Shown here in pieces: positions 4,501 through 22,610 of a DNA stretch of 22,610 nucleotides. Position numbers and translations under genes: made by a program. This DNA comes from a virus. Location: positions 1 to 22,610 of IMG/VR virus record IMGVR_UViG_3300032053_009540. One strand, given 5' to 3'. Below the pieces are notes generated by a model. It made no database searches. It was not told the DNA's origin and was given only the letters and a program-made list of their open reading frames with translations. Numbering within the stretch: the first letter of the stretch is position 1; each line of letters begins with the position of its first letter.

Positions 4501-7500
4501 CAAAGTAGTCGCGATACACCGAGAACGGCCGATCGTACGTTTCGGCAAGCGAATACAGACGAACTAGGTCCACAGAATCAAGGCGAGACAGGTTCCGCCA
4601 AACGATTACTTCATCGATCCGGGTCGTGTCGCCAGCCACAGATAATCCTGGGGAGACCGGCGCGACCGGAAGCGGAACGTAACCGGCGTCCTGGACACCT
4701 ATCGGGTCTAGGGCGCTGCCGTCGATCGATGCTCCAAGCGTCCACCAACCATCGGCCGAGTTGACAAAATCCAGTACCACGAAGTGCCACTGGTCGTCGT
4801 TCAGAGACGACAGTGCGGGCACACTCCATCTCGCGGAATTCATCCAAACCGTACTGCCGGAGATCGAGGCCGACAGCGATGCTCCGGCCGTGATTAGCGA
4901 ACCACCAACAGACGGATTCATGCACCACAGTCCGACCGTCAGCCTAGTGGCACTGGTCGTCGACGGATATACTAACGGTGACGAAGCGTCCAAAGACGAC
5001 TCGCCAACCATCGCGGATAGAATCTTGCCGTCATCAACAACGGTTGTTCCGTCCCATGTTTGGTCGTGCGTGAACTCAATCAGATCATCGCATTCGTGGT
5101 AGAAAACTACGTTGTCGTCAAACGGCAACTTCCCGGCGGGCATACGGCCACGCATATACACGGAACCCGAAGTGCCAACCGGCTCGTGGCCACGTAAATA
5201 CGCAACAGTATCGCCGTCAAGGGGCTCATGACCACGCAGGTACAATGTGCCCAAAGACCCAGGTGCTTCGTGTCCCCGCATGTATGCCGTAGTGTCGCTG
5301 TCGATCGGCTCGTGACCGCGCAGGTACCAATCGCAATCGTTGACTACCACTTCGTGGGCGTATAGGATGACGCATGGACGATTGTCGCCAATGGGTTCGT
5401 GCCCGCGAAGATACGCAACGCCGAAAGAATCGAGTGGTTCGTGGCCTCGCAAATACATGGGGCATGAAGTATCGAACGGCTCGTAGCCGTGCAGATGCGC
5501 CGTGATATCGTCATCAAGCGGCTCATGGCCACGTAAGTATACGGTCGTATCTTCTTCGAGTGGTTCATGTCCGCGTAGATATAGTGTGCCCAAGGCATCT
5601 GGCGATTCATGGCCACGCACGTATGTCGTGATGTCGCCATCGAGTGGTTCGTGGCCGCGCAGATACGCTGTGTCAGAATCATCGAGGGGCTCGTGACCAC
5701 GCAGATATACGGTGGAGTCTGCGTCTAGCGGTTCGTGCCCACGTAAGTATGCCACACCCGAAGAATCAACTGGCTCGTGGCCGCGCACGTACAGGGAACC
5801 CAAAAGCCCAGGCTGTTCGTGACCTCGCATATACACAGTTACCGAACCATCGAGTGGCTCATGGCCGCATAGATATGCGACGCCCGAGGAGTCAACGGGC
5901 TCGTGGCCGCGAACATATTCGGTGATCGACAAATCTAGCGGTTCATGTCCGCGCAGATAAATCGAACGATCATTTGACGTAACCTCATGAGCATTCAGAA
6001 TGACGCATGTGCAATCGTAGCTGATTGGCCCATGACCGCGCAAATACACGGTTCCCGATGAATCGATGGGCTCGTGCCCACGTAGGTATGAAATACTCGA
6101 AGAGCCAACCGGCTCATGTCCACGCAGATATGCTACGCCACTATTACTTGCCGGTTCTGGAACAGCCAGATATATCGTTGTCACGCCATAGGTTGGTTCG
6201 TGGCCGCGCATGTACAAAATACTTGCGTTATCCACGAACTCGTGACCCAATACATATGCCGTACCTGTACCACTCGCCAATTCACTGCCACACAGGTATG
6301 CGACACCAGACGAGTCAAGGGGTTCATGGCCGCGTATAAACGACGCATAAGTTCCGGACTGCGATGGAAAACCACCAAGCGTATACGCAACGCTCGACTC
6401 TGCGATAGACAGATGGCCCCGGACAAACAGCGTAGCCGACCCACTCGCTTGATCTTTCTCAAAGAAATCGTAGTATTCAACTACCTGGTATCCGGAGGCC
6501 CCAAGGTTGTATAAGTTCGCCAAAACCTGATCTTCCATCAGATTCGTGCGAGACCATACGACCACCTCGTCAAGTGCCGCCCCCGTAACAGCGTTGGGAA
6601 CCGTTCCGAATATGGACGCTGTCCCGCCAACTGTGACGCCAGAAATACTTCCAGTTGGGACTAATGTTACCCAGGACGTACCGTCCACCGAGATTCTTGG
6701 CGTATATGACAAGGCTCCGGACGGATGCCATGACGCCATCGTCATGTGCCACTGGTCGCTGGCTACTCCGGACATAGGAGATGGTGCCCAGATACTCCCA
6801 CTGGTACCCGTCAACCTCATTCCGGACGACGTGAACTCATGCACAAATCCATCGGATACCCGAATGGTTCCACTAGAGTTTAGGGTACCGCTTGACCACG
6901 CCGAAACCGTAATGGACTTCGCTGCGACTCCAGACGGCGCACGGGTCAAGGACAGGGGGGGCAAACCCTTGGTGGTACGAAAAACCAAGACACCAGACGG
7001 ATGACCTCCCAGATGGTAGTCGCCAGTGGAGTTATACGCCAACGTTACTGGGTATTGGGACCCAGTAAGTGAAGCTGGCAGTGTTACCGTATCCGAGATC
7101 GACATACCCAAGTCGTTCTCGTCAACAGTCAATCGAGATATAGCAATGCCAGAACTGACCAGGCTCACGTATGCCGCTTCACATTGGTGGCTAAGATACC
7201 CACCACCACGATCAAGGCTCAGTGGGATGATCTGCCGGACCGCAGCTATCCATGGGGTGGCAATAGACCCATATAGCTTGCTCGTACGAACCGTACCGTC
7301 GCCATTGCGACGAACGACAAGAGCCTTGGACTCATAATAGCCAGCAGAGCCAGGAAAATCCCACATCACGATCGCGGTGTCATCGCTGATTGCTACACAC
7401 AAGATGCTACTACCCGCATAATATCGCGTTCCGGAACAAACCTGATCATCGAATTTGATGGTGCTCCCCGACACTGACAGGGTACCCACCCATAGGCCAC

Positions 7501-10195: not shown

Positions 10196-10570
10196 TTACG
10201 CATCTCCCGCAACAAAGCTAAGCACACCGGACGACACGAAGTATTGCTCGATCTCGGCATCAGAATATGCGATACGAGAAGCTACCGAACGGCTACGCAT
10301 GGCAAAGCCGTTTGACCGCAACCGGCGCACGACAGATGAAGCGGCAATGTGGACCAACCGACCAACCTGCGTGGCCGACAACCCCATATTATAAAGTTTC
10401 ACGACTACTTCTAGGGGAACTTTTTGAGCCGCGATAGAACGCGACCGAAGTGGAACACCATGGCGACGCAGACAGTTGTAAATAGCCACACGGCTGCGAC
10501 CATCAACTTCGGCGATGTCACCGCAACTGTGCCCGGAATTATACATTGAGATGACCTGGTCGCTGTCCAA
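10196..10570 (-). CDS. Tandem helix-turn-helix protein
   Basis: The 124-residue product probably starts at TTG (10570) with a GGAG site seven bases upstream; an in-frame TAG lies five codons before it and no ATG is available. It contains two HTH units repeated at a 50-residue offset: residues 6-45 (VISMYNSGHSCGDIA, ending PLRSRS) and 56-95 (VVKLYNMGLSATQVG, ending AMRSRS). This Y-G-S---IA--G layout with a basic R-R-S end resembles resolvase-type or homing-endonuclease-associated HTH modules. The gene abuts the giant adhesin gene (TAA then ATG, no gap), so translation may be coupled. It could regulate the adhesin, be a stripped recombinase or endonuclease, or have a DNA-binding role in packaging. 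No catalytic domain is present. Function unknown. Confidence 0.7.
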   Translation of the reverse strand: MDSDQVISMYNSGHSCGDIAEVDGRSRVAIYNCLRRHGVPLRSRSIAAQKVPLEVVVKLYNMGLSATQVGRLVHIAASSVVRRLRSNGFAMRSRSVASRIAYSDAEIEQYFVSSGVLSFVAGDA

Positions 10571-10708
10571 AATGCGTCTCCGCTACCTTAACAGTGGGCA
10601 CAACATCCGCTACGATACTATACGCAACTCGGACTATACCCCCCAGATCGACGCAATTGCCAGAGGAAGTATCACAAAATATTCTCCAGCAGAGTAATCG
10701 TCGTGAAA
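10571..10708. other. 138-base gap, possible promoter region
   Basis: This is one of the larger gene-free stretches in the window. On the minus strand it holds two TATAGT hexamers (10638-10633 and 10622-10617), each a fair match to a -10 box, but no good -35 hexamer at 16-18 bases. A promoter here would make sense because a strong terminator lies upstream of the small gene before it. I see no coding capacity and no hairpin terminator in the gap. Confidence 0.25.
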
Positions 10709-10996
10709 CTAAACATCGACCGTATCCCCCTCAACGACAACTACTGGTGCTGGAATCTTGACAACTCCTATTCGCTCGCCACCAACATCCAGGAACTCAC
10801 CGACCCATTCCCATGTGCCGTCGTTGGCTAGCTTGATGTTCGAGAGAACGACTGATCGATAACGAGAAAGACAGGAGACAATCACGAGGATACTAGCAAT
10901 AGAATTGCGCATTACAGTTTCGCTGCCAGACCGATCGTCGGACGGCGGAACTATAGAATACTTCGCTACTAATCGCCTGTAATCGGGACGCCGCAT
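10709..10996 (-). CDS. Hypothetical small late protein
   Basis: The product is 95 residues if the ATG at 10996 is used. The same frame is open further upstream to a GTG at 11116 (135 residues), but that extension would translate through the terminator hairpin at 11098-11064, so I prefer the later start. A 22-codon leader frame (11064-10996) ends in TGATG on this ATG, which could couple the two. The Shine-Dalgarno site is weak. Visible features are a hydrophobic stretch (SIASILVIVSCL) too short to be a convincing membrane segment, an NDGTWEWVGEFLD strand and a valine-rich end (APVVVVEG). The position between capsid and HTH genes suggests a virion or assembly role. I do not recognise the family. 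Confidence 0.5.
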   Translation of the reverse strand: MRRPDYRRLVAKYSIVPPSDDRSGSETVMRNSIASILVIVSCLSRYRSVVLSNIKLANDGTWEWVGEFLDVGGERIGVVKIPAPVVVVEGDTVDV

Positions 10997-11063
10997 CAGT
11001 TCCAGATAGGAACGCTGAGTTGCACTAGCTCGGCGGGACTCGTAGCCACGATAGCTTCCCCCA

Positions 11064-11098
11064 TAAACGAAAAGGGGACCGGATTGCTCCGGCCCCCT
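11064..11098 (-). terminator. Intrinsic terminator behind the major capsid gene
   Basis: On the minus strand an 11-bp stem (AGGGGGCCGGA pairing with TCCGGTCCCCT, one G-U pair) closes a GCAA tetraloop and is followed by TTTCGTTT. It begins 26 bases after the capsid stop codon. The stem is strong and GC-rich, and the U-run is slightly broken. It would end or attenuate transcription after the head genes. Confidence 0.8.
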
Positions 11099-11123
11099 CT
11101 GGGTCACAAACAACACTTCACGA

Positions 11124-12134
11124 CTAGAACGAGCCGATCAGCACGCGACGATCGTCCAGGACCGCAAAGCCGATTTCGGCCCAGGCATAGAACCCGGCCC
11201 GCTGCTGACGATGCAGTCGGGGGTCATCGAACACCGACAGGGGTTCGCGAATCGGCATGACAAACGAATCGCGGTTCGTCAGGTCGAGACCGATACAAAT
11301 CTCCTTGTCGCCCGAACCCATCGACCCACCGAGAGTGATGTCGAAGAAGTTCTGGAACTCCTGTCCCTCGCCCAGTTCGTCGAGGGTATGCAACTTCACG
11401 CCGTAGATCGAACTGAGAACTTCGTTCTCGCCGTCGGCCGTAAAGATTTCGCGCATCGTGAGAGGATCGATATTGTCCTCGGTGGTGTCACTGCCCCACT
11501 CGCGGATGTCCTCAAGGGCCTCTGGGCTGAGGAACAGATCAGACAGCCGACCGCGCTTGATGGACGTACTGTTGCCACCAGCAAGCCGACGCATCTGGGT
11601 TTTCATCAGAGAGACCAACCGCTTGGTGAACTGACCAGCAGCGGCATTGGCGTCGTAGATCAACACGCCACGACCAGCGCCAGCGGCGATAAGAGTCCGC
11701 CAGCCATCGGTGTTGAGCTTCTGGGCGACTCCCGCCTCAAGAAGCGCCAGGGCCTTCGACACAACCGGCCATCGGGCGTCGCGGCTGTATTTGAGAGGCC
11801 AATCGATGGCATTCGCCACCGAGTACGTCGGGACCGTCACCTTGTCGCTGGTGATGCTCCGACAGGGGATCGCACCCTCAGACGGAATCGTGTAGGCAAT
11901 GTAATCGCCTTCGCGACCCGGCTGGTAGAAGTCGAGCGGATACTCGGCCGTAGCACCAGGGCCGAGAGGCTCCTCGACGAAAATGCCGCCGAGAATGTCA
12001 CCGGCGAGCGGGACCGACCGCAACGGCTCAATCAACGCAGCCGCCAGGGCCTTCATGCCGCGCTCGGATTCCCGTGGGTCCGAGGCACCGGCCATACGCA
12101 ACAGCTTACTCATTTCCTCAGTTGGCTTAAACAT
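11124..12134 (-). CDS. Major capsid protein (HK97-fold type)
   Basis: The 336-residue product begins at ATG with a strong GGGAGG site ten bases upstream. The central LSDLFLSPEALEDIREW motif (residues 197-213) is a hallmark of one large group of HK97-fold phage capsid proteins. The C-terminal RAGFYAWAEIGFAVLDDRR stretch is the expected end of the fold. A helical N-terminal segment (residues 1-40) precedes the body, with no sign of a long cleaved delta domain. The gene lies directly after the decoration and scaffold genes and before a terminator, the standard place for the most highly expressed late gene. It forms the icosahedral shell. Assignment is by motif and position; a structure-aware search would settle the subgroup. 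Confidence 0.9.
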   Translation of the reverse strand: MFKPTEEMSKLLRMAGASDPRESERGMKALAAALIEPLRSVPLAGDILGGIFVEEPLGPGATAEYPLDFYQPGREGDYIAYTIPSEGAIPCRSITSDKVTVPTYSVANAIDWPLKYSRDARWPVVSKALALLEAGVAQKLNTDGWRTLIAAGAGRGVLIYDANAAAGQFTKRLVSLMKTQMRRLAGGNSTSIKRGRLSDLFLSPEALEDIREWGSDTTEDNIDPLTMREIFTADGENEVLSSIYGVKLHTLDELGEGQEFQNFFDITLGGSMGSGDKEICIGLDLTNRDSFVMPIREPLSVFDDPRLHRQQRAGFYAWAEIGFAVLDDRRVLIGSF

Positions 12135-12152
12135 ACTGACCGTTACCTCCCT

Positions 12153-12659
12153 TTACAGATTCACGTAGACGCGGGCGAAACCGTCGGCGTCCTTTGAAGT
12201 CTCGAACTTACCAACAAGAGCACAACCCGTAGCGCCAGTCGGAGCGACAGTGCCACTGGAACTCATGTAAGCAGGATCACCAGCGCCCGGCCTACCGTCG
12301 ATGGCATCCGTTACAATCCAACCCTTGCGAACGATCCCAACCTTGCGGCCAGGATAGGACGTATTTCCCGAATCGTCCCAGCGTCGCGGCTCGGAAGTCT
12401 GCTCGTTCTTGACATCCTGGCACAACACACCGATGGGTACCTTGCCGCTGGGATTGACAACGACCTCAACGGTGTTACCATTTCCCATGCCGGGCTCGTA
12501 CGTGGGCAACACGCCAATGTCATCAAGACCAACGCCACTGGTAGCAGTAGCTAGAACGGCGAAGTGCCCCTTCGTCGTAATGGCTTCCGTCACAGCGCCA
12601 ACCTTGTAGAAGCGCGTCAGGTCAACCTCAACATGATAGTCAAAATCTGGCTTCAACAT
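12153..12659 (-). CDS. Head decoration / capsid cement protein
   Basis: The 168-residue product starts at ATG with a GGAGG site nine bases upstream that overlaps the TAG stop of the scaffold gene. The C-terminal half has the layout of phage decoration proteins: GWIVTDAIDG, then GDPAYMSSSG and APTGAT, then LVGKFETSKDADGFARVYV. The last segment is typical of small capsid-stabilising proteins encoded just before the capsid gene. No signal peptide or membrane segment is present. It would bind the expanded shell from outside and stabilise it. It lies 18 bases upstream of the capsid gene, consistent with co-translation in large amounts. The family is recognised by pattern and location only. Confidence 0.75.
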   Translation of the reverse strand: MLKPDFDYHVEVDLTRFYKVGAVTEAITTKGHFAVLATATSGVGLDDIGVLPTYEPGMGNGNTVEVVVNPSGKVPIGVLCQDVKNEQTSEPRRWDDSGNTSYPGRKVGIVRKGWIVTDAIDGRPGAGDPAYMSSSGTVAPTGATGCALVGKFETSKDADGFARVYVNL

Positions 12660-12672
12660 ACAACCACACCTC

Positions 12673-13308
12673 CTAGTTTTTGCTCTCTTTGCTGGGACGC
12701 GGCAACAGCGCCTGCGCTACGGCCCGAGCAGTCTCTTGCGTTTGATCGTCAATCGTCACGTTCCCGAGCGACACGTCGCCCTCGGGTGGCAACACTACGG
12801 ACTCAGCAGTCAGTTCTGGAACCGTGACAGTCGCGGACGCAGAACCAGCATACCTCAACACAACGGCGAACGTCTCGTCGGTCATAGCCCGAAGCTCGGC
12901 CATCGTCTCGGCGACCTTATCGTCAGCAACCGGACGGACAACCAGCATCTTGTCGAAACGATCCTTCGCCGCCTGGTCCAGCTTGGCCTCTGTGGCAGCA
13001 GCCTTGAGGATAGCAAGCTCGGACGCCATCGCCTCGCACTCCGTTACCTTAATGGCCAACGCATCCCGCTCGGCCGTGAGAGCATCTCTCTCACCAGTAA
13101 TCGCAGCCACCGAAGCAGCAGCCGCATCGCAATTCGTCTGCAAATTCTGGCACTCAGCAGACTTCGCCTCCAGGGCACTCTTCGCTTCGGCACAAGCCTG
13201 CGCCGACGCCTCAAGTGAACTGGTAAGTTCGCCACATTTGGTCGTCAATGCCGACACCTCGTCCGTCAGCCTCTGGACCTCAGCGGCCACCGCAGTCGAC
13301 TCATCCAT
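12673..13308 (-). CDS. Nested in-frame scaffold protein (internal start)
   Basis: An ATG at codon 238 of the protease-scaffold gene (13308-13306) has a near-perfect GGAGG site with a seven-base spacer, stronger than the signal of the full-length GTG start. Translation here yields a 211-residue protein (start MDESTAVAAEVQRL) that is exactly the coiled-coil and tail part without the protease. Lambda Nu3 is made in the same way from within the C gene. The start lies just after a glycine/serine-rich linker (SFNGGST), a sensible domain border. Separate production is inferred, not shown. Confidence 0.72.
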   Translation of the reverse strand: MDESTAVAAEVQRLTDEVSALTTKCGELTSSLEASAQACAEAKSALEAKSAECQNLQTNCDAAAASVAAITGERDALTAERDALAIKVTECEAMASELAILKAAATEAKLDQAAKDRFDKMLVVRPVADDKVAETMAELRAMTDETFAVVLRYAGSASATVTVPELTAESVVLPPEGDVSLGNVTIDDQTQETARAVAQALLPRPSKESKN

Positions 13309-14019
13309 CGTAGAACCTCCGTTGAAACTTCCAATGCTCATGATCACGGCACGCGGGTCTGCTGGATCAGACACCACTGCGCCTCCGGCGAATGTTAAGT
13401 TCAATAGCACTCGCCCCAAACGTCTCTGTCCCCACAAACCACTTCCGCCGTAGATACGCAAATGCTTGGTCAAAAACGACGTAGCGGGCGTGCGAGCAAG
13501 AACGCTAAAAACTCCAGTAGTCTCGTCGCGAATCGCATAGGCAATATCGTCGAAAAAACACTCCATCGACAGAGCCATCTGACCAGCCGCGATACGCCAG
13601 ATCACATCTTGCTGTTCTGTCGCTGCCGCCAGCGGATATAGAACACCGCCAATGTCTATTCGTACATCGGCGGGAGAATCAGAATAGCCGCTAGGCCCCA
13701 TGCCTACCGGCACCCCGTCGTCGCCGCACAGCGAAGCGCTAACGATATGTCCAACGAGATTAGCCGAGTCATGCTCAAGGCTAATCGGCTTGTCTACCGG
13801 AGTCGTCACGCCCTTGACAAGCTCGTCCCGAAGAAACACATCGTCATTGAGGTTCCAACCAGTATGGCACAGAATCCCAGTGAACCGCACCAGGTCGGGG
13901 TCGCTAATATCTGCCACCGCCTTATTTATGACATCTCGCCTAATCTCTGACACAACCATGCTGGCGCGGCATAGGTTGCCCAGATCGACAAGATGGGCCT
14001 CCAGTGGATAGACTTTCAC
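12673..14019 (-). CDS. Prohead protease fused to scaffold
   Basis: The product is 448 residues from a GTG start (GAGGAG five bases upstream). Residues 1-200 resemble prohead maturation proteases: NLNDDVFLRDEL, then KPISLEHDSANLVGHI with likely catalytic His83, then ALSMECFFDD with likely catalytic Ser151. Residues about 240-350 are alanine- and glutamate-rich with heptads (AEVQRLTDEVSALTTKC), a predicted coiled coil typical of scaffolds. The remaining tail is acidic and flexible. The protein would template the procapsid and then digest the scaffold and cut itself out before DNA packaging. Protease and scaffold in one frame recall lambda C/Nu3 and Mu I/Z. It lies before decoration and capsid genes, as expected. 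The catalytic residues are inferred from motif position. Confidence 0.87.
   Translation of the reverse strand: MKVYPLEAHLVDLGNLCRASMVVSEIRRDVINKAVADISDPDLVRFTGILCHTGWNLNDDVFLRDELVKGVTTPVDKPISLEHDSANLVGHIVSASLCGDDGVPVGMGPSGYSDSPADVRIDIGGVLYPLAAATEQQDVIWRIAAGQMALSMECFFDDIAYAIRDETTGVFSVLARTPATSFLTKHLRIYGGSGLWGQRRLGRVLLNLTFAGGAVVSDPADPRAVIMSIGSFNGGSTMDESTAVAAEVQRLTDEVSALTTKCGELTSSLEASAQACAEAKSALEAKSAECQNLQTNCDAAAASVAAITGERDALTAERDALAIKVTECEAMASELAILKAAATEAKLDQAAKDRFDKMLVVRPVADDKVAETMAELRAMTDETFAVVLRYAGSASATVTVPELTAESVVLPPEGDVSLGNVTIDDQTQETARAVAQALLPRPSKESKN
13309..13320 (-). promoter_or_regulatory. Internal ribosome binding site for nested scaffold
   Basis: The minus-strand sequence GGAGGTTCTACG sits directly before the in-frame ATG at 13308. 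A full GGAGG core inside a coding region at optimal spacing is unlikely to be chance and decides the internal start. Confidence 0.7.
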
Positions 14020-14101
14020 AGCAACTCCTCTAAGTATCTATACGCAGAATTGCGAAATCGCACGCAACTACTTAACAGTACGCACCACGATTGTAGCAAA
14101 A

Positions 14102-14500
14102 CTACTTACTATTCTTCTCGTCGTGGTCTTTGCAGATGGCCGCAAGATCGTCCGCCGCATCCTGGTAGGATTTCAGCAATGCCTTCGCGTGCCGAACCAG
14201 ATGGGCTCGGGCCTTCTTGGCGAACGATTCCTGCGACTCCTTGATAGGAATCACCTGATAAACACGAGCCAGGGCATTCCGTAGGTGCGGAAGGTCCACT
14301 GTGCCATTGGCGTTGGGATCAGTGGCGGACTTTGTGTGGTGCGGCAAGTGTCGGTACTTCTGCAACGTTTGGCCATTCTCGCCCTTTTCAGCGCCACTCT
14401 CAATGATAAAAGCAGCGTCCGGGAATGTAGCATCGCCATATCCAGCCATCGCCATTTCCGCCGCCCGCTGCAACGATGAAACAAAAGCATTCTCGTCCAT
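14102..14500 (-). CDS. Small HLPHH-motif phage protein (DUF6582-like)
   Basis: The 132-residue product starts at the ATG at 14500, which has GGAGAG at a four-base spacing. An upstream ATG at 14554 gives 18 more residues and overlaps the stop of a decayed HTH frame, but its ribosome site is poor. The centre holds KYRHLPHHTK and then NGTVDLPHLRNALARVYQV. From memory this H-LP(H)H...DLPHLRNAL pattern recurs in phage head genes next to or inside prohead proteases and portals and is grouped as DUF6582. The rest is helical (FAKKARAHLVRHAKALLKS). Its position just before the prohead protease fits a head-assembly role. The biochemical function is unknown. Confidence 0.75.
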   Translation of the reverse strand: MDENAFVSSLQRAAEMAMAGYGDATFPDAAFIIESGAEKGENGQTLQKYRHLPHHTKSATDPNANGTVDLPHLRNALARVYQVIPIKESQESFAKKARAHLVRHAKALLKSYQDAADDLAAICKDHDEKNSK

Positions 14501-14550
14501 TTTTCTCTCCATTATGCCAAACGCAACTCTGCCATCAGAATCCCCCTGGA

Positions 14551-14655
14551 TCATCTTATATGTTTCCAGGACCGTCGCCGGACAATCATAAACACCGTTC
14601 TTTGATGTACTCCGAATCGCAGAGCGAGTTCTTGCTGTGTGAAATTCCCGCCATA
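14551..14655 (-). pseudogene. Decayed helix-turn-helix fragment
   Basis: Between two in-frame stops (TAA 14658-14656 and TGA 14553-14551) lie 34 codons with no usable start codon. They read as a clean HTH: FTQQELALRFGVHQRTV, then FMIVRRRSWKHIR. The pattern ELA-RFGV---TV--IVR--SWKH is common in small phage HTH proteins and at the end of HNH homing endonucleases. I read it as the 3' stub of a lost endonuclease or regulator. It sits exactly at the junction between the sugar island and the head genes. Confidence 0.5.
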
Positions 14656-14686
14656 TTACCCAACCACCCTCGCACGCCCTACGTAC

Positions 14687-15490
14687 CTATGCTCGGCGCA
14701 TATCGTCGATCTGTTCGTCGAGCGGGGGGATTGGCATGGCTTTGTTAAAATCTGGGAAAATTGTACTTAATGTGCGGTCGATGCGACCCAGCAACTCGGT
14801 GGGACGTATGCGCAACGGCGACGCGCGCAACGCATTCAGCTTCATCAGCAAATCATATTTGCTAACCGTCTCCCCAAAAACATGCCGCACGCCATCAATT
14901 CGATACTGCGCAGTTTGCAACAGCAAAAGGATACAATCAGCCAATGTAGTCGTCGTAACTCCGTTCCACATACTGTTAGTAAAACCGTTGCATTCCGATT
15001 CCTGCGCCATAAACCATTCAAATAACGACAAACTCCTCGATAGTTCTGGCCCAATAATTGAAGTACGAAGCACCAGCGCACTGTGCGTTGGCTCGCCGAG
15101 CGCCTTAGACCGCCCATAAATGTCCGGTTCATCTGGCAAATCTGTCTCAACGTAATTACCGACATCTCGACCAGAAAAGATGCAATCACTCGACACATGG
15201 ATAAGGCGACTCTTCTCCGCCAAGCGATGTGGGAGATACGAATTAAGCATTATCGCACGCAATATTCCATCTGCGGTTGGCAATTTCGGCAAGCGCTGTC
15301 GGATCATCCCGACACAGTTTATAACAATAGCGTGGCGCAATGAGTCACATAACAAGTCGATGTTTGCCATCTCCGATAGATCACCGTACTGTTTTCTGGT
15401 CAGTGGAACAACGTCATCGTAGGCACGAGACAACGTGGCCGCAACCACATGTCCAAGCATTCCATCTGCGCCCAAGACAATAATCCTCAT
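14687..15490 (-). CDS. RmlD/CapF-like nucleotide-sugar reductase (SDR)
   Basis: The 267-residue product starts at ATG 15490, overlapping the previous TGA as ATGA, with GGGAGG ten bases upstream. A longer frame to 15508 would put that site inside the gene. It is an extended short-chain dehydrogenase: GADGMLGH nucleotide-binding motif (residues 7-14), HVSSDCIFSG (98-107) and YGRSK (Tyr125, Lys129) as catalytic residues. The NGFTNSMWNGVTT segment matches the substrate region of RmlD-like and CapF-like reductases. Such enzymes reduce a 4-keto nucleotide sugar with NAD(P)H. With the cupin epimerase and 2-epimerase next to it, a UDP-L-FucNAc- or L-QuiNAc-type pathway is the best guess, with dTDP-rhamnose as the alternative. 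After the TAG stop the same frame stays open through the next gene. Confidence 0.85.
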   Translation of the reverse strand: MRIIVLGADGMLGHVVAATLSRAYDDVVPLTRKQYGDLSEMANIDLLCDSLRHAIVINCVGMIRQRLPKLPTADGILRAIMLNSYLPHRLAEKSRLIHVSSDCIFSGRDVGNYVETDLPDEPDIYGRSKALGEPTHSALVLRTSIIGPELSRSLSLFEWFMAQESECNGFTNSMWNGVTTTTLADCILLLLQTAQYRIDGVRHVFGETVSKYDLLMKLNALRASPLRIRPTELLGRIDRTLSTIFPDFNKAMPIPPLDEQIDDMRRA

Positions 15491-15984
15491 CGCTCTACAA
15501 CCTCCCATATGTCGGGGAAGAATTTGGTCGAATATCTTATGTCATCGCCAAGCGATTCGTCGGTCGTCATGTCCGAAAAATACAACAGTTGTGCGTCAGC
15601 CGTAAGAATCCTGCTACTGTTGGCGTAACCAGGTGGAATTTTAAGCAAGCTAGGATTTGGGTCTGAACTAAGAATTACCCGTTTAGCACCAACCACTGTT
15701 TGCCAAGACCCGCGCTGCATCAGTACGCCGGAACCATGCCCGGCTGCCGCATCCGCCAAAGCCCACAGGGGCATCGATCCAATGATAACGGTTCCGCGCA
15801 GACAAGTCACCCACTTAGTCTCTCTCTCGTGCCCATGCCATGGGCGGATAAAGCCTGGCAAATGATTAGTCACCACATACAATCGCCGTATATTCGACCC
15901 CCTAAAATCGAACGAATTGAAGCATTGTAAAAATCCTCGATCGTCGGCGATCCTCTGCCCATCAAAAAGCTCGCAATCAGACAC
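15487..15984 (-). CDS. RmlC-like cupin sugar epimerase
   Basis: The product is 165 residues from a GTG start with GGGGG eight bases upstream. Motifs of the dTDP-4-dehydrorhamnose 3,5-epimerase/CapF-cupin group are visible: ADDRGFL (13-19), IRPWHGHERETKWV with His50 and His52, a CLRGTVII strand, IPPGYANSS (116-124) and LLYFSD. In classical RmlC the PPG segment is followed by a histidine; here Asn occupies that place, so the specificity may differ. It would epimerise C3 and/or C5 of a 4-keto sugar before reduction by the next gene product. The stop overlaps the start of the reductase by four bases, so the two act like the split halves of the two-domain CapF protein. Confidence 0.82.
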   Translation of the reverse strand: MSDCELFDGQRIADDRGFLQCFNSFDFRGSNIRRLYVVTNHLPGFIRPWHGHERETKWVTCLRGTVIIGSMPLWALADAAAGHGSGVLMQRGSWQTVVGAKRVILSSDPNPSLLKIPPGYANSSRILTADAQLLYFSDMTTDESLGDDIRYSTKFFPDIWEVVER

Positions 15985-16015
15985 AAATAGTACCCCCGCT
16001 TAATGGCGCAATAAA

Positions 16016-17116
16016 CTACCACGTTTGCGCATCTGACAAAATACCATCTATGGTCTCACTGGTCCGACCGTCGCCAAGCCAGCAGATATCTGGCCCAATG
16101 CGGCCAGCCATTACGTTCTGCACATAACCAACGGCGCAACCATAGGATTCGGGGCTAAACACATCTAGCATGATTGAGCATCCATGCTCGATGGACTGCG
16201 GTCGCTCGGTTGATGACCTTGGAACAATAACTGGCGTGCCGACCAAAGCGGCTTCTTCCTGTGACGTTCCGCTGTCCGACACCAGGCAAACCGATCTTCG
16301 CTGACGGTCCATATACTCGACGAAGGACATGAGTCCAACTAAGGAAAAACCACACTTCTCCACACTAATCCCTGCCTCATCCAATGACGCCATCGTCCTT
16401 GGAAAACAAATCCATGTGACTTGTTCTTTCAAGAGGTCTTGCAGGGACATTAGATGCTTGACAATTGCCGCTAATCTGGATGAACTCCTGATATTTTCGT
16501 CCCGATGAATATCAACCAAGATGCCCGTACGACGCCCGGCTATCGAATGACTATTAGCCAAATACTGTCTGACCGGCTCTACTATCGTATTACCAACCAA
16601 GTATATCTTATCGACACCAATGCCTTCTCGGATCAAATTGGCAACATTGTTTGCATGATACGCAAAGAGCAAGGATGAACAATGATCACATACTATGCGG
16701 TTAATCTCTTCTGGCATGTACCCATCGCCAGACCGCATTCCCGCCTCGATGTGACCAATTCGCCATCCCATCTTCTTCAGTACTGGACATACTAGGACGG
16801 AATTAGAATCACCTAGCAACAAAACCATGTCCGGACGTATATCTTCCTTGAGCAACAGTCCGACTAGCTCCATTTGCAAAACACTCAATTGCTCAACATG
16901 CCCACGTCCAGGAGCCCCAACATGTAGCGTATAGTCTGGGAGCCTAATCTGGAGATCGCGAAAGAATACGTCCTTGAGTTCCGGCTGATAATGCTGGCCT
17001 GTCCAGATAAAAATATGCCTAAACAATGGATTATTATCCAGTCTTTTGATCAGATAAGCAAGTCGAATTAAGTCCGGACGAATACCAGCTACTGTAACGA
17101 TGATCTTTTGGAGCAC
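16016..17116 (-). CDS. UDP-HexNAc 2-epimerase (WecB/FnlC-like)
   Basis: The 366-residue protein begins at a GTG whose first G is the last base of the glycosyltransferase TAG; AGGAGG lies ten bases upstream. Family motifs are present in order: GIRPDLIRLA (normally GTRPE), TGQHYQPEL, LLGDSNS (Asp103), HIEAGMRS (Glu124), PEEINR (Glu136/137), GNTIVEPV, IHRDEN (His204) and SDSGTSQEEAALVGTPVI. These cover the known catalytic residues, so it should be active. The FFRDLQIRLPDYTL stretch resembles the FnlC/CapG branch that makes UDP-L-FucNAc more than plain WecB. The reaction would be C2 epimerisation of a UDP-N-acetyl sugar. UDP-ManNAc is the alternative product. Confidence 0.9.
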   Translation of the reverse strand: MLQKIIVTVAGIRPDLIRLAYLIKRLDNNPLFRHIFIWTGQHYQPELKDVFFRDLQIRLPDYTLHVGAPGRGHVEQLSVLQMELVGLLLKEDIRPDMVLLLGDSNSVLVCPVLKKMGWRIGHIEAGMRSGDGYMPEEINRIVCDHCSSLLFAYHANNVANLIREGIGVDKIYLVGNTIVEPVRQYLANSHSIAGRRTGILVDIHRDENIRSSSRLAAIVKHLMSLQDLLKEQVTWICFPRTMASLDEAGISVEKCGFSLVGLMSFVEYMDRQRRSVCLVSDSGTSQEEAALVGTPVIVPRSSTERPQSIEHGCSIMLDVFSPESYGCAVGYVQNVMAGRIGPDICWLGDGRTSETIDGILSDAQTW

Positions 17117-17967
17117 TAGATCATGTCCTCCTGTGAGTCAGAAATTTGTCCCCAAATCCTACCAGGATTTGCAATCGGCGGCCTGATACCTGCTTGCGTC
17201 TCACTTACGATATGGGTATAAGCAGACCTGGACTGCTGCACAGCAGAAACGGCACCGGGGTCGATCTGATTATCCTTTTGGTGGTCCTGGTGCAAAACAT
17301 AATAATCAGCGAGGTCCAATATGCGGCAGTCAAAATGATTCACTTGTGCATGAAAAGCCAGTAGATCGTCATCATAACCTATCTCCTTTATGTCTTCATC
17401 AAACCCGCCAATTTTCCCGATAGCCGCAGCAGTGGAGCCAAGACAAAAACACAACAATCTAGGATTATTGCGACCGACAAACTCCGATCGTCCCGCGAAC
17501 TCACTCGTCAATACGTCGAGTCGTTGCAGCCATTCTGGTTCGCGTTGCGACAGCCATATATTATCATCTGGTGTTAGGCTTAAAGTTTTGACGCAATAGA
17601 ACGGATCAACCTGCGACGCGACCAATTGTGACCATAGTCCATCTATGACGTTACCAACATGAAAACATTCCGGATTTTGTATGATAAGATATTTCGCGCT
17701 AGCCCGCTGAATAGCACAATTCATGGCCCAATTTTGATTCCGATACCTGTATGTTCTATTGGTAGAAAACACCCTGATATTCATAAATGGAGGTCGGTTG
17801 ATAAACTGGCGACATACTGTCAGTAGTTCAGAAGAAGTAACATCATCATTAACAATAACAACCTCTATGGCCTTTTCTGTGTTCTGACACTGAACGGATA
17901 GCAATGTCCTGCGGAGAAGGTCTGCGCGACGGAAATAACTCATGCAGATCGTGATATCTGGAACCAT
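17116..17967 (-). CDS. Family 2 glycosyltransferase
   Basis: The product is 283 residues. The ATG at 17967 lies three bases after the portal stop, and its likely ribosome site (AGGGGG) is inside the end of the portal gene. The GT-A fold is clear: DITICMSYFRRADLLRRTL at the N-terminus, EVVIVNDD (35-42) for nucleotide binding, IIQNPECFHVG (95-105) in the metal-site region, GGFDEDIKEIGYDDDLLA (187-204) as the acceptor/catalytic segment and a late HQDH. No membrane segment is seen, so it is cytoplasmic. The co-encoded sugar enzymes probably make its donor. Acceptors could be virion proteins or host glycans. DNA glycosylation is less likely because no base-modifying enzyme is nearby. Confidence 0.85.
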   Translation of the reverse strand: MVPDITICMSYFRRADLLRRTLLSVQCQNTEKAIEVVIVNDDVTSSELLTVCRQFINRPPFMNIRVFSTNRTYRYRNQNWAMNCAIQRASAKYLIIQNPECFHVGNVIDGLWSQLVASQVDPFYCVKTLSLTPDDNIWLSQREPEWLQRLDVLTSEFAGRSEFVGRNNPRLLCFCLGSTAAAIGKIGGFDEDIKEIGYDDDLLAFHAQVNHFDCRILDLADYYVLHQDHQKDNQIDPGAVSAVQQSRSAYTHIVSETQAGIRPPIANPGRIWGQISDSQEDMI

Positions 17968-17970
17968 ACC

Positions 17971-19941
17971 TTATAGCCCCCTGGCGTGCCCCTCAGACCA
18001 AGCAATTGACATCAACAAACGGCGGTCTTCACCTACCGGGCAAGACTTTGTGACCGCCGCAAAAGTCTCCGCCATCTTGTTGTACAGTTGTGTGTATCGT
18101 GACAAACGGGCATCGTCGACATAACCACCGTGGTCACTAACCGACTCTGGCGTTACGGGGTCTTCTGGGGACATAGCACACAGAATGGTCCACGCCACAG
18201 CGTCGCGCATTTCATCGGTTATATCGTCGAGTAGTGGGTAGATAAGCGATAGAAACTGCATACCCAGCACTTTCGTGTTACGCTCTCGCGGCGAACCATC
18301 GGGCGTAGAAGATGGACGACCAGGATCGCCATCTCCGTCCTGTCTCGGCAGATCGCCAAGTGGGTTGTCGCCCCCACCGCCAGTATCGCCCGAACCAGTC
18401 TTAGTGGCAGCTAAACGCAACTGCTGCTCAAACTGCATGTCCATAACACTTTTGGGACGGTAATATGGACCAGCACGCTCAAGGATGGGCGGTTCGGCCT
18501 GACGAAGCTCCTCCTCCTGTCTGAGCCCCTCGATCTCGTACAGATACTCCCTACCAAACGCCTGATGGACCGTCTCAACAGTTATGATACCACGATCTAA
18601 AAGCTGGATCAGCAATCGCTTCTCGCCGACTTCATCACGCAACGCTGTGACGTTGAATGAAATCGATGGCGGTTCGACCCACCCCATCGCGCGCCGAATC
18701 ATATCCAGTTCGTTTTTGAGCCACGCCACGCACTTCATCCGGACGTATTCCAGCCGCTCGGATAACGTCTTCAATTGGACGAACGTACTAGACGAAGACT
18801 TGGTACCAGTATCGCTACCGCCGACCAACAGATCGGGAATTCCAAGTCCGCGTACGATATCCGCGTTGACGCCCTTGTATTTATCGCCACCAAGAATCTT
18901 GTCCAGCGGCGGATACTCTACCTGGAGGTCGATCATGTCGTCCCAAACCAGGTCCATAATCCCGCCACCGGTGTTGTTCTGCAAAATTGACAATAGCTTG
19001 TTGACGGCCGTGCTGGTCGGCAATACTTCCTTGTCCGAATTGCCCAACTTCCAGATGCGAATCGCGTTGATAACACCGTCAAGAGCAGCCATGTCGGCCA
19101 GTCTCATCTTCGACTTGAATACGATGTCCTCCATGACAGCGTACAGGAACGACGTACCCCACGCCTCCCAATCGTCTTTCTTGTAGAAATCGACCCAGAC
19201 CACCGACTCGTCCATGGTGACATATCTCTGTCCCCTGTCGATGGCGGTCATAATGTCGGCCGGAATCTTCTTCAGTAACGCGGCGTTCTTCGCCTGTTTG
19301 GCCTGCTGTATTGCGGAAAGTAATTCTTGGGGGATACGAACGTCTATCGACTTAGAGTCGACGAACCTTCCGAGACCGCCGCCGGTACGACAAGCAATGG
19401 CTGGAGAAATAAAGGTATACATAATTGGGATACGGACATCCCCCGGTTGATCGAGGGGGAAATCCTCTTGCGACATTTCCATCGGACGCCTTGCGGCGTA
19501 AACCATTCGACGCTTTGGATCAGACAACATGGTCCCCATGGTCCTGCGACAAATGACATTCCCATCACGCAATAGATTACGTTGAAACGTGTGAATGCGA
19601 TCCGGTAGATTGACAAGTTGCGCCCACTGACGATAGAATCGTTGCTGCGCCTTCGATCGATGGTTGATCTGAACGCCATCGGAAGCAAAATCTGCCATCA
19701 AATCGATCATGTTGCGCACAAGACCGATCTTCTTATAGAGTTCCTGGCACGCCACGACTATACCTTCGTGGTTCGTCGGAAGCAGTTCCTCGGGACGCGC
19801 GCGATAATAGTCCTCGCGGGAAAACCCAGGACGCTGCGACACAACATCCGCTCGCGTCACCCCGCGTACGCAGACATTCGCCGTGGCACTACCAAAACTG
19901 TTAATCTTTTCGCCAGAAGCACTTACGTACATGTCATCCAC
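17971..19941 (-). CDS. Portal protein
   Basis: The 656-residue product probably starts at the GTG at 19941, six bases after GGGGAG. The frame also allows a TTG at 19965 (664 residues), but that lacks a good site. Portal features include YYRARPEELLPT, the helical IVVACQELYKKIGLVRNMID segment, FQRNLLRDGNVICRR, a long helical middle and PDLLVGGSDTG. These resemble portals of large tailed phages. Between residues about 515 and 560 lies a low-complexity linker rich in Gly, Asp, Pro and Ser, then a helical tail with LLDDITDEMRDAV. Twelve copies form the ring through which the terminase pumps DNA. It lies 62 bases after the terminase gene, which supports the call. Confidence 0.87.
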   Translation of the reverse strand: MDDMYVSASGEKINSFGSATANVCVRGVTRADVVSQRPGFSREDYYRARPEELLPTNHEGIVVACQELYKKIGLVRNMIDLMADFASDGVQINHRSKAQQRFYRQWAQLVNLPDRIHTFQRNLLRDGNVICRRTMGTMLSDPKRRMVYAARRPMEMSQEDFPLDQPGDVRIPIMYTFISPAIACRTGGGLGRFVDSKSIDVRIPQELLSAIQQAKQAKNAALLKKIPADIMTAIDRGQRYVTMDESVVWVDFYKKDDWEAWGTSFLYAVMEDIVFKSKMRLADMAALDGVINAIRIWKLGNSDKEVLPTSTAVNKLLSILQNNTGGGIMDLVWDDMIDLQVEYPPLDKILGGDKYKGVNADIVRGLGIPDLLVGGSDTGTKSSSSTFVQLKTLSERLEYVRMKCVAWLKNELDMIRRAMGWVEPPSISFNVTALRDEVGEKRLLIQLLDRGIITVETVHQAFGREYLYEIEGLRQEEELRQAEPPILERAGPYYRPKSVMDMQFEQQLRLAATKTGSGDTGGGGDNPLGDLPRQDGDGDPGRPSSTPDGSPRERNTKVLGMQFLSLIYPLLDDITDEMRDAVAWTILCAMSPEDPVTPESVSDHGGYVDDARLSRYTQLYNKMAETFAAVTKSCPVGEDRRLLMSIAWSEGHARGL

Positions 19942-20003
19942 AGTATGCTCCCCAAAACACGGCAAGGGACCAGGCCCCTATATTCATATACCCATCCGGG
20001 GCA

Positions 20004-22079
20004 CTATGACCCAGCTTTGTGCTTTAGATAACCAAAGCCCATTTCTCCTGTCAAATATTCGGCAGCATTTCGCATCCTACCGACTCCCGGACCACGATAC
20101 ATGGGACCGCCCGGCACGTCAGTCACTTTGCCCATATTACCGACAACATCGTCATAATCGATACCATGTGTCGACTGACCGGCAATGTCCTCGTCGTAGA
20201 CATATCGATAGGCCATAAGCAGGGCGCTGTAACGATCCTTCTTCAGACGGGTACCACGATGAGCGGAGGTTGCCTCGCTGCGTCCGGGCAATCCAAACTT
20301 CGGTTTACCACCGGCTGTCTCCGTGATAGAGATCAGACAAATCTCATCCTTGAGCGCCTCTATCTCCATAACGCAGTCTTCGTAGGTATCGACGGTCCGA
20401 CCGACCGCCTTCTCGGCACTCAGAGAAGCCTGCATCTTTACGGTATCGAAGCACGGGAAAAATAGTTTGCGTGTCTCGAACCCCTTGTGCATTGAATAGT
20501 TGGCCTGAGTGTTCCATTCAGTCGAAGGATGAACTAGATGTAGAATATGGGGACCATCCGACGCACCGTCGAGTGATGTCGGGTTTTCACGATCGACGAC
20601 TTCGTAGATGGGGCGCTCGCCAGCAGCAATGATACGGGTATTGCGCAACATCTCGGCGATAGGATATCCACCCCCCTGACTATCCATCTCGATGCGCACG
20701 ATCTTGAAAGCTCGACACAACTCCCGCACCTTTGAACAACAATAGGCGTAGTAGTCGTCGCTGGTGGCCAGACCAGATTGCTTGCGACGCTCAAACTCCG
20801 GCTTATTCACCGACCAGCAATAGACGATACGAGCATGGTTCCCCCACACCTCCGCGACGACGATAGCCAGATTGTCCATCTCGGATGCCGGATCAATACC
20901 CATCACGTACTTGCGATCTGGATCGCCATTCATGGCTGGCGTGAATTCTACGGGACCATCTACCGTATGGATCGGCATACCGGGGCGCGGCGTGCAGGAC
21001 TCCAACATGCTCCGTTTGTAATAACCATCTGAATCGCTGACGAAAACCGAAGCATACTCCATCAAGAACACGTTGCGCGGCATGGACATCTGAGCCGAAG
21101 CTAACTGTTTAGAGTCCAGTAGTCCGGGCTGTACGCAAGTATACGGAATTCGCATGATGCCAAAATCGCGCCAGTCAAAACCTTCCGGTACACCAACGTC
21201 ACTGCCGAATAGCTTGAGTAACTTCCGGCGATCGCCACGACTCTTGATGATCGCTCGCCATAAATCGTGTCTCTTGGCGAAATGATTGAACGCATACGAT
21301 GCTGTTCCGGAGTAGATAATCTGATTGTATGAAATCTTTCCACCAGCCAGTACTTGCCCCATCTGGTCGGGGATGCCAAGACCCTTTAACCGAGCGACGG
21401 TGGCCAGGCGACGAGCCTCGTCAACGGGACTCTTGTGCGTTGCCGCAAATCCCTGGACTACGGTGTCAAATATCTCCTCGGAAATCGACGCAAACTCGTC
21501 CGCAATTACAACGGTAGCGCGCAGTCCCCTGATTTTGGAACCGTCGCCCATTGGAATGGCACAAATAAACGATGGCCCAACTCGGCAATAGCACGAATCT
21601 ACCGAGGTCTTTGGGCGTCCACGATTCCCTCCGCAGATATCCCGAAGAATTGGTGCGTTGTTCCAGATACTTTCAACGTAGTTGAACACTACCTTGGCTT
21701 GCCTAAAGCCAGCGCCGACAATGACAATCTTTGCTCCTGGGTCAAGCATGGCTCGCATCAGAGCATAGACCGCAAGTAGGAATGACTTTCCGCTCCCCCT
21801 AGATGCAACCAAGATTGGACGAGCAGTTCGCCACAAAAATCTCAACTGAGCAATCTGCATTGGAAACAGGTCAAGATTCAGCAACACCTTGGCAGCCCAG
21901 CCTATGTATCGCTCGCTCGTCACCGCAGACATGACATCGGATAGCAGATGTTCAATATTGAAGAACGGATGGTTATCCCCAACTACCGGGACATCATCGC
22001 GATATGGGAATAAGTATCCATAGTCTATCTCATCGCGGGAGAGAAGGGAATCAAGTTTTTCGGCAGAAGCAACCATCAT
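20004..22079 (-). CDS. terL: Terminase large subunit (ATPase-nuclease)
   Basis: The product is 691 residues; the ATG overlaps the previous TGA as ATGA, with AGGA just upstream. The ATPase half has Walker A ASRGSGKS (92-99), Walker B VVIADE (190-195) and the coupling motif YSGTAS (256-261). The RNase H-like nuclease half has three well-spaced acidic residues: Asp396 (MGIDPASE), Asp466 (RIEMDSQGGG) and Asp615 (KKDRYSALL). The length is somewhat above the usual 450-650. It packages the genome through the portal and cuts the concatemer. No small terminase subunit is visible; it may lie beyond the right edge. The call is secure. Confidence 0.96.
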   Translation of the reverse strand: MMVASAEKLDSLLSRDEIDYGYLFPYRDDVPVVGDNHPFFNIEHLLSDVMSAVTSERYIGWAAKVLLNLDLFPMQIAQLRFLWRTARPILVASRGSGKSFLLAVYALMRAMLDPGAKIVIVGAGFRQAKVVFNYVESIWNNAPILRDICGGNRGRPKTSVDSCYCRVGPSFICAIPMGDGSKIRGLRATVVIADEFASISEEIFDTVVQGFAATHKSPVDEARRLATVARLKGLGIPDQMGQVLAGGKISYNQIIYSGTASYAFNHFAKRHDLWRAIIKSRGDRRKLLKLFGSDVGVPEGFDWRDFGIMRIPYTCVQPGLLDSKQLASAQMSMPRNVFLMEYASVFVSDSDGYYKRSMLESCTPRPGMPIHTVDGPVEFTPAMNGDPDRKYVMGIDPASEMDNLAIVVAEVWGNHARIVYCWSVNKPEFERRKQSGLATSDDYYAYCCSKVRELCRAFKIVRIEMDSQGGGYPIAEMLRNTRIIAAGERPIYEVVDRENPTSLDGASDGPHILHLVHPSTEWNTQANYSMHKGFETRKLFFPCFDTVKMQASLSAEKAVGRTVDTYEDCVMEIEALKDEICLISITETAGGKPKFGLPGRSEATSAHRGTRLKKDRYSALLMAYRYVYDEDIAGQSTHGIDYDDVVGNMGKVTDVPGGPMYRGPGVGRMRNAAEYLTGEMGFGYLKHKAGS

Positions 22080-22582
22080 ATTTCCTGTTCGCCCGCGTCT
22101 ATGTCTGGTTTCGATTCGAGCTTGATCACTGCCTCAAAGAATTGTTGGGCCAGCTTTTGGCCACAAGACCCAGCGAACATGAATGGTACGCCATACTCTG
22201 CTGTTAGTGACATCAGCCAACTGGTGAGTGCCTTTCCAGGCACGTTGCGTTTCATGCTGGCCGGGCTCAGAGATAGAACTTCTGGAGTCATAACGGATTC
22301 TACCACCACGAGCTTGTACCTATACGCACGAAGACGATCCATCTCTCGCTCGAACCGCTTACGTTCCAGGAAGTTACCCCACAACTCAGAGAAGTCATTC
22401 TTTCGTTCGACAACCACCACGCTGTCGTAACCAACTACTGAATAATCTCCCGTTTTGAGGGTATCTATAATCTGGCCAGCACACTTGGGAGGATTCTTGT
22501 TCGGACGGCTGGGCTCAAAATTCCAGCCATTACCGACGTGCTCTCTGGTGTCCCTGATGACAGTATAGTCCGGATAGACCAT
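22076..22582 (-). CDS. ERCC4/XPF-family nuclease
   Basis: The 168-residue product from ATG 22582 has AAGGA ten bases upstream. The frame is also open to the window edge, so a start further upstream cannot be excluded. The ERCC4 domain signature is complete: IRDTREH (9-15), LKTGDYSVVG (42-50) and VVVERKNDFSEL, with the catalytic Glu59-Arg60-Lys61 triad, then ERKRFEREMDRL. This fold cuts branched or flapped DNA. Its end overlaps the terminase start by four bases, so the two are translationally coupled. It may trim branched concatemers before packaging, the role of gp49-like resolvases in other phages, or act in recombination. That role is inference. Confidence 0.9.
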   Translation of the reverse strand: MVYPDYTVIRDTREHVGNGWNFEPSRPNKNPPKCAGQIIDTLKTGDYSVVGYDSVVVVERKNDFSELWGNFLERKRFEREMDRLRAYRYKLVVVESVMTPEVLSLSPASMKRNVPGKALTSWLMSLTAEYGVPFMFAGSCGQKLAQQFFEAVIKLESKPDIDAGEQEI

Positions 22583-22610
22583 TATGCCACGTTCCTTGGA
22601 ATGCGCAAGG

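Follow-up and report, generated by a model that had tools for sequence, protein, structure and literature searches.

What does a phage make with sugar genes placed in the middle of its head operon, and what receives the product? The window considered here, 22,610 nucleotides of IMG/VR record IMGVR_UViG_3300032053_009540, carries four such genes on its minus strand: a GT2-family glycosyltransferase (17116..17967, 283 aa, PF00535), a non-hydrolysing sugar-nucleotide 2-epimerase (16016..17116, 366 aa from a GTG start, PF02350), a cupin (15487..15984, 165 aa) and an RmlD-like SDR (14687..15490, PF04321; 267 aa from the start at MRII or 273 aa from an upstream ATG at 15508). Their number, order and coordinates, as given in the initial annotation, are all borne out in the sequence. 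The transferase ATG follows the portal stop after 3 nt and the transferase and epimerase genes overlap by 1 nt. The cupin, which also starts with GTG, is separated from the epimerase by 31 nt (15985..16015) and overlaps the reductase by 4 nt with the MRII start (15490) or by 22 nt with the ATG at 15508. A further 132 nt precede the next gene. The described packing with overlaps of 1-4 bases is thus correct for two of the three internal junctions and fails at the epimerase/cupin gap. In Ignavibacteria and in one other phage (L282), this gap is the site of an additional Cj1427-like SDR of approximately 320 aa, referred to below as X.

The upstream boundary of the insertion is the portal gene (17971..19965, minus strand), recognised by phrog_2739 and by synteny conserved in about 85 relative loci; the protein has no match in annotated phages. 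The downstream boundary is p150 (14102..14554, minus strand), a small head-operon protein which lies directly after portal in most relatives having it. A location between portal and prohead protease, as first described, is therefore accurate on the portal side, but it is p150 and not a protease that directly follows the cassette. The gene labelled as the protease, p448 (12673..14019, minus strand), is a conserved head-operon gene located between portal and the cement and major capsid genes (relatives, n=40). Family profile searches returned no meaningful match for p448, and the label derives from position, by which it could be a protease or a scaffold. The major capsid gene itself (11124..12134, minus strand; phrog_2522) encodes a protein with about 57-63% identity in closer relatives, and the late, head-operon setting is supported. 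A separate promoter for the cassette was considered and rejected: a consensus scan scored barely above shuffled sequence. The GC content of the cassette is lower than that of the neighbouring head genes. Cassette genes occupy the portal-p150 interval in none of 51 non-identical relatives, and an FkbM methyltransferase is found there in 13. Across 20 relatives searched over their full records (72-181 kb) there is no epimerase, and GT2-like matches occur in three, one very weak. Two close relatives (L002 and L003) end inside portal.

The transferase matches PF00535 significantly (38.3 bits, cut-off 23.3), in agreement with its annotation as a glycosyltransferase. Identity between it and its relatives is only 25-31%. 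A scan of viral_contigs with the transferase recovered 21 viral relatives; single-sequence scans with the window epimerase and reductase recovered none. Conserved among the transferases are an acidic GYDDD region and a QNPECFH motif, the latter common to epimerase-adjacent transferases of other phages. The fold model, of moderate confidence (pLDDT 71), is of GT-A type and closest to K4CP and other GT-A enzymes, and the closest folds are those of sugar-polymer and protein transferases. The epimerase is a clear member of Epimerase_2 (PF02350, 202 bits, cut-off 30.6), in which the residues D103, E124, E136/E137 and H204, taken here to be catalytic from what is known of E. coli WecB, are invariant in the alignment. 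Its score against the WecB/RffE equivalog TIGR00236 (196 bits) is under the cut-off of 210.15. The phylogeny proposed to check its designation as FnlC/WecB-like included S. aureus CapG, FnlA-linked epimerases and E. coli WecB, with E. coli FnlC left out. The window enzyme clusters with those of phages and Ignavibacteria (100/100), in a phage clade (99/92) sister to Ignavibacteria. CapG belongs to another clade, which places the window enzyme outside FnlC/CapG, and WecB is separate, on a very long branch. The designation is not supported.

The cupin alone is below family thresholds (PF00908, 21.8 of 27; PF05523, 21.5 of 23), although a homologue passes, and its identity as a cupin is supported. 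The pocket residues R47, H50, H52, E55 and K57 are invariant in 48 of 48 sequences, and an insertion of about 18 residues is unique to the window copy within the alignments. In structural comparison, the best match of the AF2 model (pLDDT 83) is the cupin domain at the C-terminus of CapF, with a VIA Z of 14.6 and an rmsd of 2.1-2.9 over 115-124 residues, against Z 12.9 for the next-best family. This provides fold-level support for a separate CapF-like cupin. The protein is probably a C3/C5-epimerase or ketoisomerase of a 4-keto sugar nucleotide. The reductase, a probable C4-ketoreductase, scores 58.8 bits against PF04321 (cut-off 27) and has an invariant Gly-rich motif and Y131xxxK135. CapF/FnlB is a single SDR-cupin polypeptide, whereas the window has two separate genes. 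There was no hit of the reductase to the CapF/FnlB model NF047837 at E<=0.01, and blastp against S. aureus CapF was not significant (best E 0.08). A careful 38-row tree places the reductase outside the FnlA-linked reductase clade (100/98); it replaces a quick tree of 86 rows in which the protein was nearer to that group. Synthesis of dTDP-rhamnose by an RmlC/RmlD pair was rejected because the equivalog scores are far under cut-off (TIGR01221, cupin, 17 of 155.75 bits; TIGR01214, reductase, 59.6 of 224 bits).

The cassette is more than a chance assembly: a cupin-alignment scan of viral_contigs identified 44 non-redundant phage locus groups in which these genes occur together. X and RmlD are present in all 44, the cupin in 42, GT2 in 25 and the epimerase in 24; GT2 directly adjoins the epimerase in 19, as in the window. 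HMM searches and trees assign the contiguous cupin, RmlD, epimerase and GT2 homologues of the window to this module, and X has no match anywhere in the window. The missing gene had been proposed to be a 4,6-dehydratase of the FnlA/CapE type. None was found in the window, and an FnlA-type enzyme occurs in only 2 of the 44 groups, so such a dehydratase is most likely not what is missing. The closest solved relative of X (149 bits, versus 57 for the next) is PDB 6vo6/6vo8, the C4-dehydrogenase Cj1427. At the site where dehydratases keep Asp or Glu, X mostly reads STCSVYG, and its assignment as a 4,6-dehydratase was rejected. Homology together with these missing acid residues suggests that X would be a C4-dehydrogenase rather than a dehydratase. 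A cupin epimerase and a C4 reductase act on the product of Cj1427 (PMC10680097).

Cassette parts lie against head genes in two phages unrelated to the window phage: portal and a major head protein are upstream of X-cupin-RmlD-epimerase in one (L250), and GT2 and RmlD are just upstream of TerL-portal-virion protein in the other (L241). Most other phages carry the module inside large glycosyltransferase clusters, not between head genes, and some carry it near replication genes. The isolated cyanophage Yong-DA has distant epimerase and X matches amid polysaccharide genes, not beside head genes. The cupin has no match among annotated phage or plasmid records.

The closest bacterial relatives are from Ignavibacteria (epimerase, 42-44% identity; cupin, 36-40%). 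All 11 strong group-I cupins in 296 genomes are beside X and RmlD, the epimerase is also present in nine of the short stretches fetched around them, and the gene order is epimerase-X-cupin-reductase. Next to this operon are motA/motB and chemotaxis genes, together with very large glycosyltransferase-like ORFs; no GT2 homologue was found. A search for the terminase in 395 genomes of the Ignavibacteria phylum, which had no positive control, found it in none.

The reading preferred here, to which we give an even chance, is that a rare-sugar module carried by phages has been inserted in reduced form, as these four genes, between portal and p150 in the head operon, where it follows an X-type C4 oxidation route and serves a virion acceptor. 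X would oxidise an NDP-sugar, probably a UDP-HexNAc, at C4 and without dehydration. The resulting 4-keto intermediate would be epimerised at C3 and/or C5 by the cupin and reduced at C4 by the RmlD-like enzyme; the WecB-type enzyme would invert C2 and GT2 would transfer the finished sugar. The window does not encode X, the proposed first enzyme, which weighs against this reading. With no X on the contig, the 4-keto substrate would have to be supplied from elsewhere, either through an X gene in a part of the phage genome that was not sequenced or by the host. Genomic position alone, in the head operon here and partly so in the two unrelated phages, favours virion glycosylation. The most likely acceptor would be a co-made virion protein (capsid, cement, tail or the 2,887-aa adhesin), whose sugar would alter adsorption or shield the particle. 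That the cassette is expressed with the head proteins and that the virion or the adhesin is glycosylated, as suggested in the initial annotation, are still inferences. The observation made there is partly confirmed; its interpretation is partly supported, including a nucleotide-sugar pathway with its own transferase. Dozens more uncultured phages carry the same gene set, and in bacteria it is found next to motility genes; a mobile pathway that coats proteins with sugar is therefore probable, the target here being perhaps the virus particle itself.

The frequent location of the module in glycosyltransferase clusters, in some phages near replication genes, speaks against a virion target and fits modification of the host surface equally well. 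The sugar would then be added to host LPS, capsule or flagellin, blocking superinfection or masking a receptor, and the motility/flagellar-type locus of the bacterial cassette implies that the host flagellum could be the target. Such a role is possible but rather doubtful for a cassette which begins 3 nt after portal in a late head operon, has parts placed against head genes in two unrelated phages and has neither a polymerase, a flippase nor a membrane anchor gene beside it. That these genes carry out the final steps of UDP-L-FucNAc or UDP-L-QuiNAc synthesis, with CapF split in two and FnlA/CapE contributed by the host, appears unlikely: both the epimerase and the reductase branch apart from the FnlA-linked and CapG clades, the NF047837 model finds no match, X far outnumbers FnlA in the homologous phage loci (44 groups versus 2) and only 3 of 6 Ignavibacteria genomes tested encode a full-scoring FnlA/PseB-type protein. 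In favour of this pathway are the enzyme families of the epimerase and reductase, which are those used there, the CapF-like cupin fold, the usual location of bacterial reductase homologues beside an FnlA-type dehydratase and a WecB-type epimerase, and a giant-virus precedent of dehydratase, reductase and 2-epimerase (PMC10117803).

The missing X, the unique cupin insertion, the long branches of reductase and epimerase and the low GC relative to the head genes could also indicate decaying cargo, a formerly complete module which has lost X and is being eliminated. Four open frames in tight translational packing, with cupin pocket, epimerase catalytic residues and SDR motif all intact, make this improbable. 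Glycosylation of modified phage DNA by GT2 with the cassette sugar is very improbable. Phage glycosyltransferases acting on DNA are known (PMC12619734); however, no gene for modifying DNA bases was recognised in the window, GT2 is a PF00535 member whose closest folds are sugar-polymer and protein transferases, and DNA-modifying genes are not expected within a head operon.

A broader proposal, that of a widespread and largely undescribed phage module, is put forward tentatively. It would place a stereo-inverted hexosamine, made without a dehydratase by C4 oxidation, cupin epimerisation, C4 reduction and C2 epimerisation, on virion proteins, would share ancestry with a flagellin-glycosylation-like Ignavibacteria locus and would be located in the head operon in this phage. 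Virus-made sugars on giant-virus virions and glycosylated mycobacteriophage capsids are already established. If correct, a conserved module with its own transferase and seemingly no need for a 4,6-dehydratase would constitute a new route to virion glycans, linking the decoration of phage particles to bacterial flagellar glycosylation. Its four to five small enzymes are directly assayable.

Several known systems share parts of this organisation. For UDP-L-RhaNAc/L-QuiNAc, Megavirus chilensis (mg534-mg535-mg536) and Moumouvirus, like the window, encode a reductase (270 aa), a 2-epimerase and adjacent glycosyltransferases, and the virus-encoded sugar ends up on virion fibrils; unlike the window, they have a 4,6-dehydratase/5-epimerase (mg534) and neither cupin nor X in the listed cluster, and are eukaryotic giant viruses with fibrils instead of a head operon (PMC10117803). 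In glycosylated mycobacteriophages glycans are carried by capsid and tail-tube proteins and, in the portion of the account consulted, no sugar-nucleotide cassette of their own is described (PMC12619734). S. aureus CapE-CapF-CapG and E. coli FnlA-FnlB-FnlC (UDP-L-FucNAc) combine a cupin, an SDR reductase and a 2-epimerase, and CapF provides the closest cupin fold. However, CapF is one bifunctional protein, the pathway has a dehydratase, and the window epimerase and reductase belong to other clades. The capsular heptose pathway of C. jejuni (Cj1427 C4-dehydrogenase, C3/C5 cupin epimerase, C4 reductase) follows the same logic as X-cupin-RmlD of the homologous phage loci, although it uses GDP-heptose substrates and has no WecB-type 2-epimerase, and the window has no dehydrogenase (PMC10680097, PMC7949155). 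The Ignavibacteria operon has X and giant glycosyltransferase-like ORFs alongside, and no GT2 homologue was found there, but its gene order is the same as in the window and it includes the closest bacterial relatives.

The window is the entire 22,610-bp IMG/VR record, to which no other contig belongs. The order on its minus strand is ERCC4-type nuclease (22076-22609, phrog_3490), large terminase (TerL), portal, GT2 glycosyltransferase (17967-17116), 2-epimerase (17116-16016), cupin (15984-15487), RmlD-like reductase (15490-14687), the small protein p150, the conserved protein p448, cement and major capsid protein (MCP). Beyond the latter, also on the minus strand, lies a 2,887-aa adhesin-like protein (1532-10195), the "giant adhesin" of the initial annotation. 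The four sugar genes are located where that annotation had placed them. Their described packing by 1-4 base overlaps holds for two of the three internal junctions (1 and 4 nt) but not for the epimerase-cupin junction, a 31-nt gap; junction details excepted, the observation is sound. The cassette begins 3 nt from the portal gene and ends 132 nt before p150, and its GC content (45-50%) is below that of the adjacent head genes (52-60%). Both in the window and in its relatives, the nuclease gene stands immediately before TerL, a place in which one might look for a small terminase.

About 85 related-phage loci, collected with portal and p448 queries and including several records of 150-181 kb, keep the order ERCC4-TerL-portal-interval-p448-cement-MCP. 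Among the 51 non-identical relatives with a complete portal-p448 interval, its length ranges from 20 to 2,633 nt (median 536), compared with 3,951 nt in the window. Because none of these 51 intervals contains any of the four cassette genes, and the epimerase was not found in 20 whole records of relatives, the cassette appears to be specific to the window's lineage. Two near-identical relatives (portal 98% and 92%) end inside the portal. The 51 intervals contain a conserved 109-aa protein, p109 (32), an FkbM-family methyltransferase, TIGR01444 (13), p150 (7) and an HNH-type ORF (5); loci L010 and L007 are among the carriers of interval FkbM/p109. Neither a recognisable p109 nor FkbM was found in the window. 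Judged from these sequences, the insertion site is a variable interval, and the FkbM methyltransferase that some relatives carry there is likewise an enzyme with frequent links to glycan modification. The same interval holds a 177-aa ORF in relatives L049 and L052 (7190-7723) and, in L051 (6500-7240), a 246-aa ORF with caspase-like motifs recognised by eye only. In other relatives (L021, L011, L012, L030, L034, L038, L063, L074), insertions at no fewer than three positions split TerL; they are 1.1-2.4 kb long, stay in frame and contain no stop, which would fit inteins. The terminase of the window has no such insertion.

GT2 and cupin-alignment scans of uncultured phages yielded, after removal of near-copies, 44 locus groups. 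All 44 include the reductase and a further SDR, here called X; the cupin occurs in 42, GT2 in 25, the epimerase in 24 and an FnlA-type protein in 2, with GT2 and epimerase within 100 nt of each other in 19. The closest relative of the window epimerase (49% identity) is in L282, where contiguous epimerase-X-cupin-reductase genes reproduce the window order plus X. A search of 50,697 annotated phage records gave no cupin of the window's group (group I). Region 4000-17000 of the 635-kb huge phage LR745206.1 combines a long glycosyltransferase cluster with genes for an FnlA/PseB-type dehydratase and for a reductase that shares 36% identity with that of the window.

The cassette had been interpreted as the late steps of UDP-L-FucNAc or L-QuiNAc synthesis, with an FnlC/WecB-like epimerase and a dehydratase possibly supplied by the host. 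The epimerase phylogeny does not bear out this identity: the window groups with 27 phage sequences (99/92), the Ignavibacteria form their sister group (100/98), and FnlA-linked epimerases and Staphylococcus aureus CapG fall elsewhere. The addition of Escherichia coli WecB, a very long branch, leaves this placement unchanged. Similarly, 12 FnlA-linked reductases form one clade (100/98) excluding the window, which lies beside phage and Ignavibacteria sequences without finer resolution. The CapG and CapF sequences, identified by reading, came from a record labelled Staphylococcus phage (OR844989.1, 282,636 bp); judging from its genes, it contains the capsule locus of S. aureus (CapE, CapF, CapG) and is therefore probably host DNA.

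The best match of X is PDB 6vo6/6vo8 (149 bits; next 57), the solved structure of Cj1427. The Tyr-Lys pair of SDRs is retained in X, as is STCSVYG or a close variant of it; the acidic residues of dehydratases are lacking. According to PMC10680097, Cj1427 is a C4-dehydrogenase, and its 4-keto product serves C3/C5 cupin epimerases as well as C4 reductases; the title of PMC7949155 accords with this. By its predicted fold (model pLDDT 83), the cupin comes nearest to the cupin domain of CapF (Z 14.6), and residues R47, H50, H52, E55 and K57 are invariant in 48/48 sequences, including the window's. In the order that we infer, X would oxidise C4, after which C3/C5 epimerisation, reduction at C4, epimerisation at C2 and transfer of the product would follow. 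Since this first enzyme has no gene in the window, the substrate in this virus would have to come from elsewhere. The cassette is better read as a pared-down relative of a C4-oxidation module than as UDP-L-FucNAc synthesis with a host dehydratase.

In bacteria, the usual neighbours of the reductase family are an FnlA/WbvB-like dehydratase and a WecB-type epimerase. Ignavibacteria, however, provide the best bacterial matches of both the window epimerase and the window cupin, and there the genes run epimerase-X-cupin-reductase. In 296 genomes of this phylum, 11 cupins belong with that of the window (231-278 bits, against no more than 142 for the next group); X and the reductase adjoin all 11, and the epimerase is also seen in 9 of the stretches fetched. 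A full-scoring FnlA/PseB-type protein is present in 3 of 6 tested genomes with the operon. Reading of the sequences around the operon (L215, L220, L221, L216) identified motA and motB, genes for response regulators, and ORFs of 500-2,400 aa that resemble glycosyltransferases or methyltransferases, which makes the locus a candidate flagellar glycosylation island. Among them, ORFs of up to 2,400 aa have the look of multi-domain glycosyltransferases.

Virion glycosylation is the leading, but unproven, function of the cassette. A role at the host surface is a serious rival, because most other phages keep the module inside large glycosyltransferase clusters. Modification of virion proteins is favoured by the head-operon position, 3 nt from the portal, and by the FkbM methyltransferases occupying the same interval in relatives. 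Moreover, parts of the cassette adjoin head genes in two phages unrelated to the window's: in L250 portal and major head protein lie upstream of X-cupin-reductase-epimerase, and L241 has GT2 and reductase with terminase, portal and a virion protein downstream of them. Virion glycosylation also has precedents in giant viruses (PMC10117803) and in mycobacteriophages, as cited in PMC12619734.
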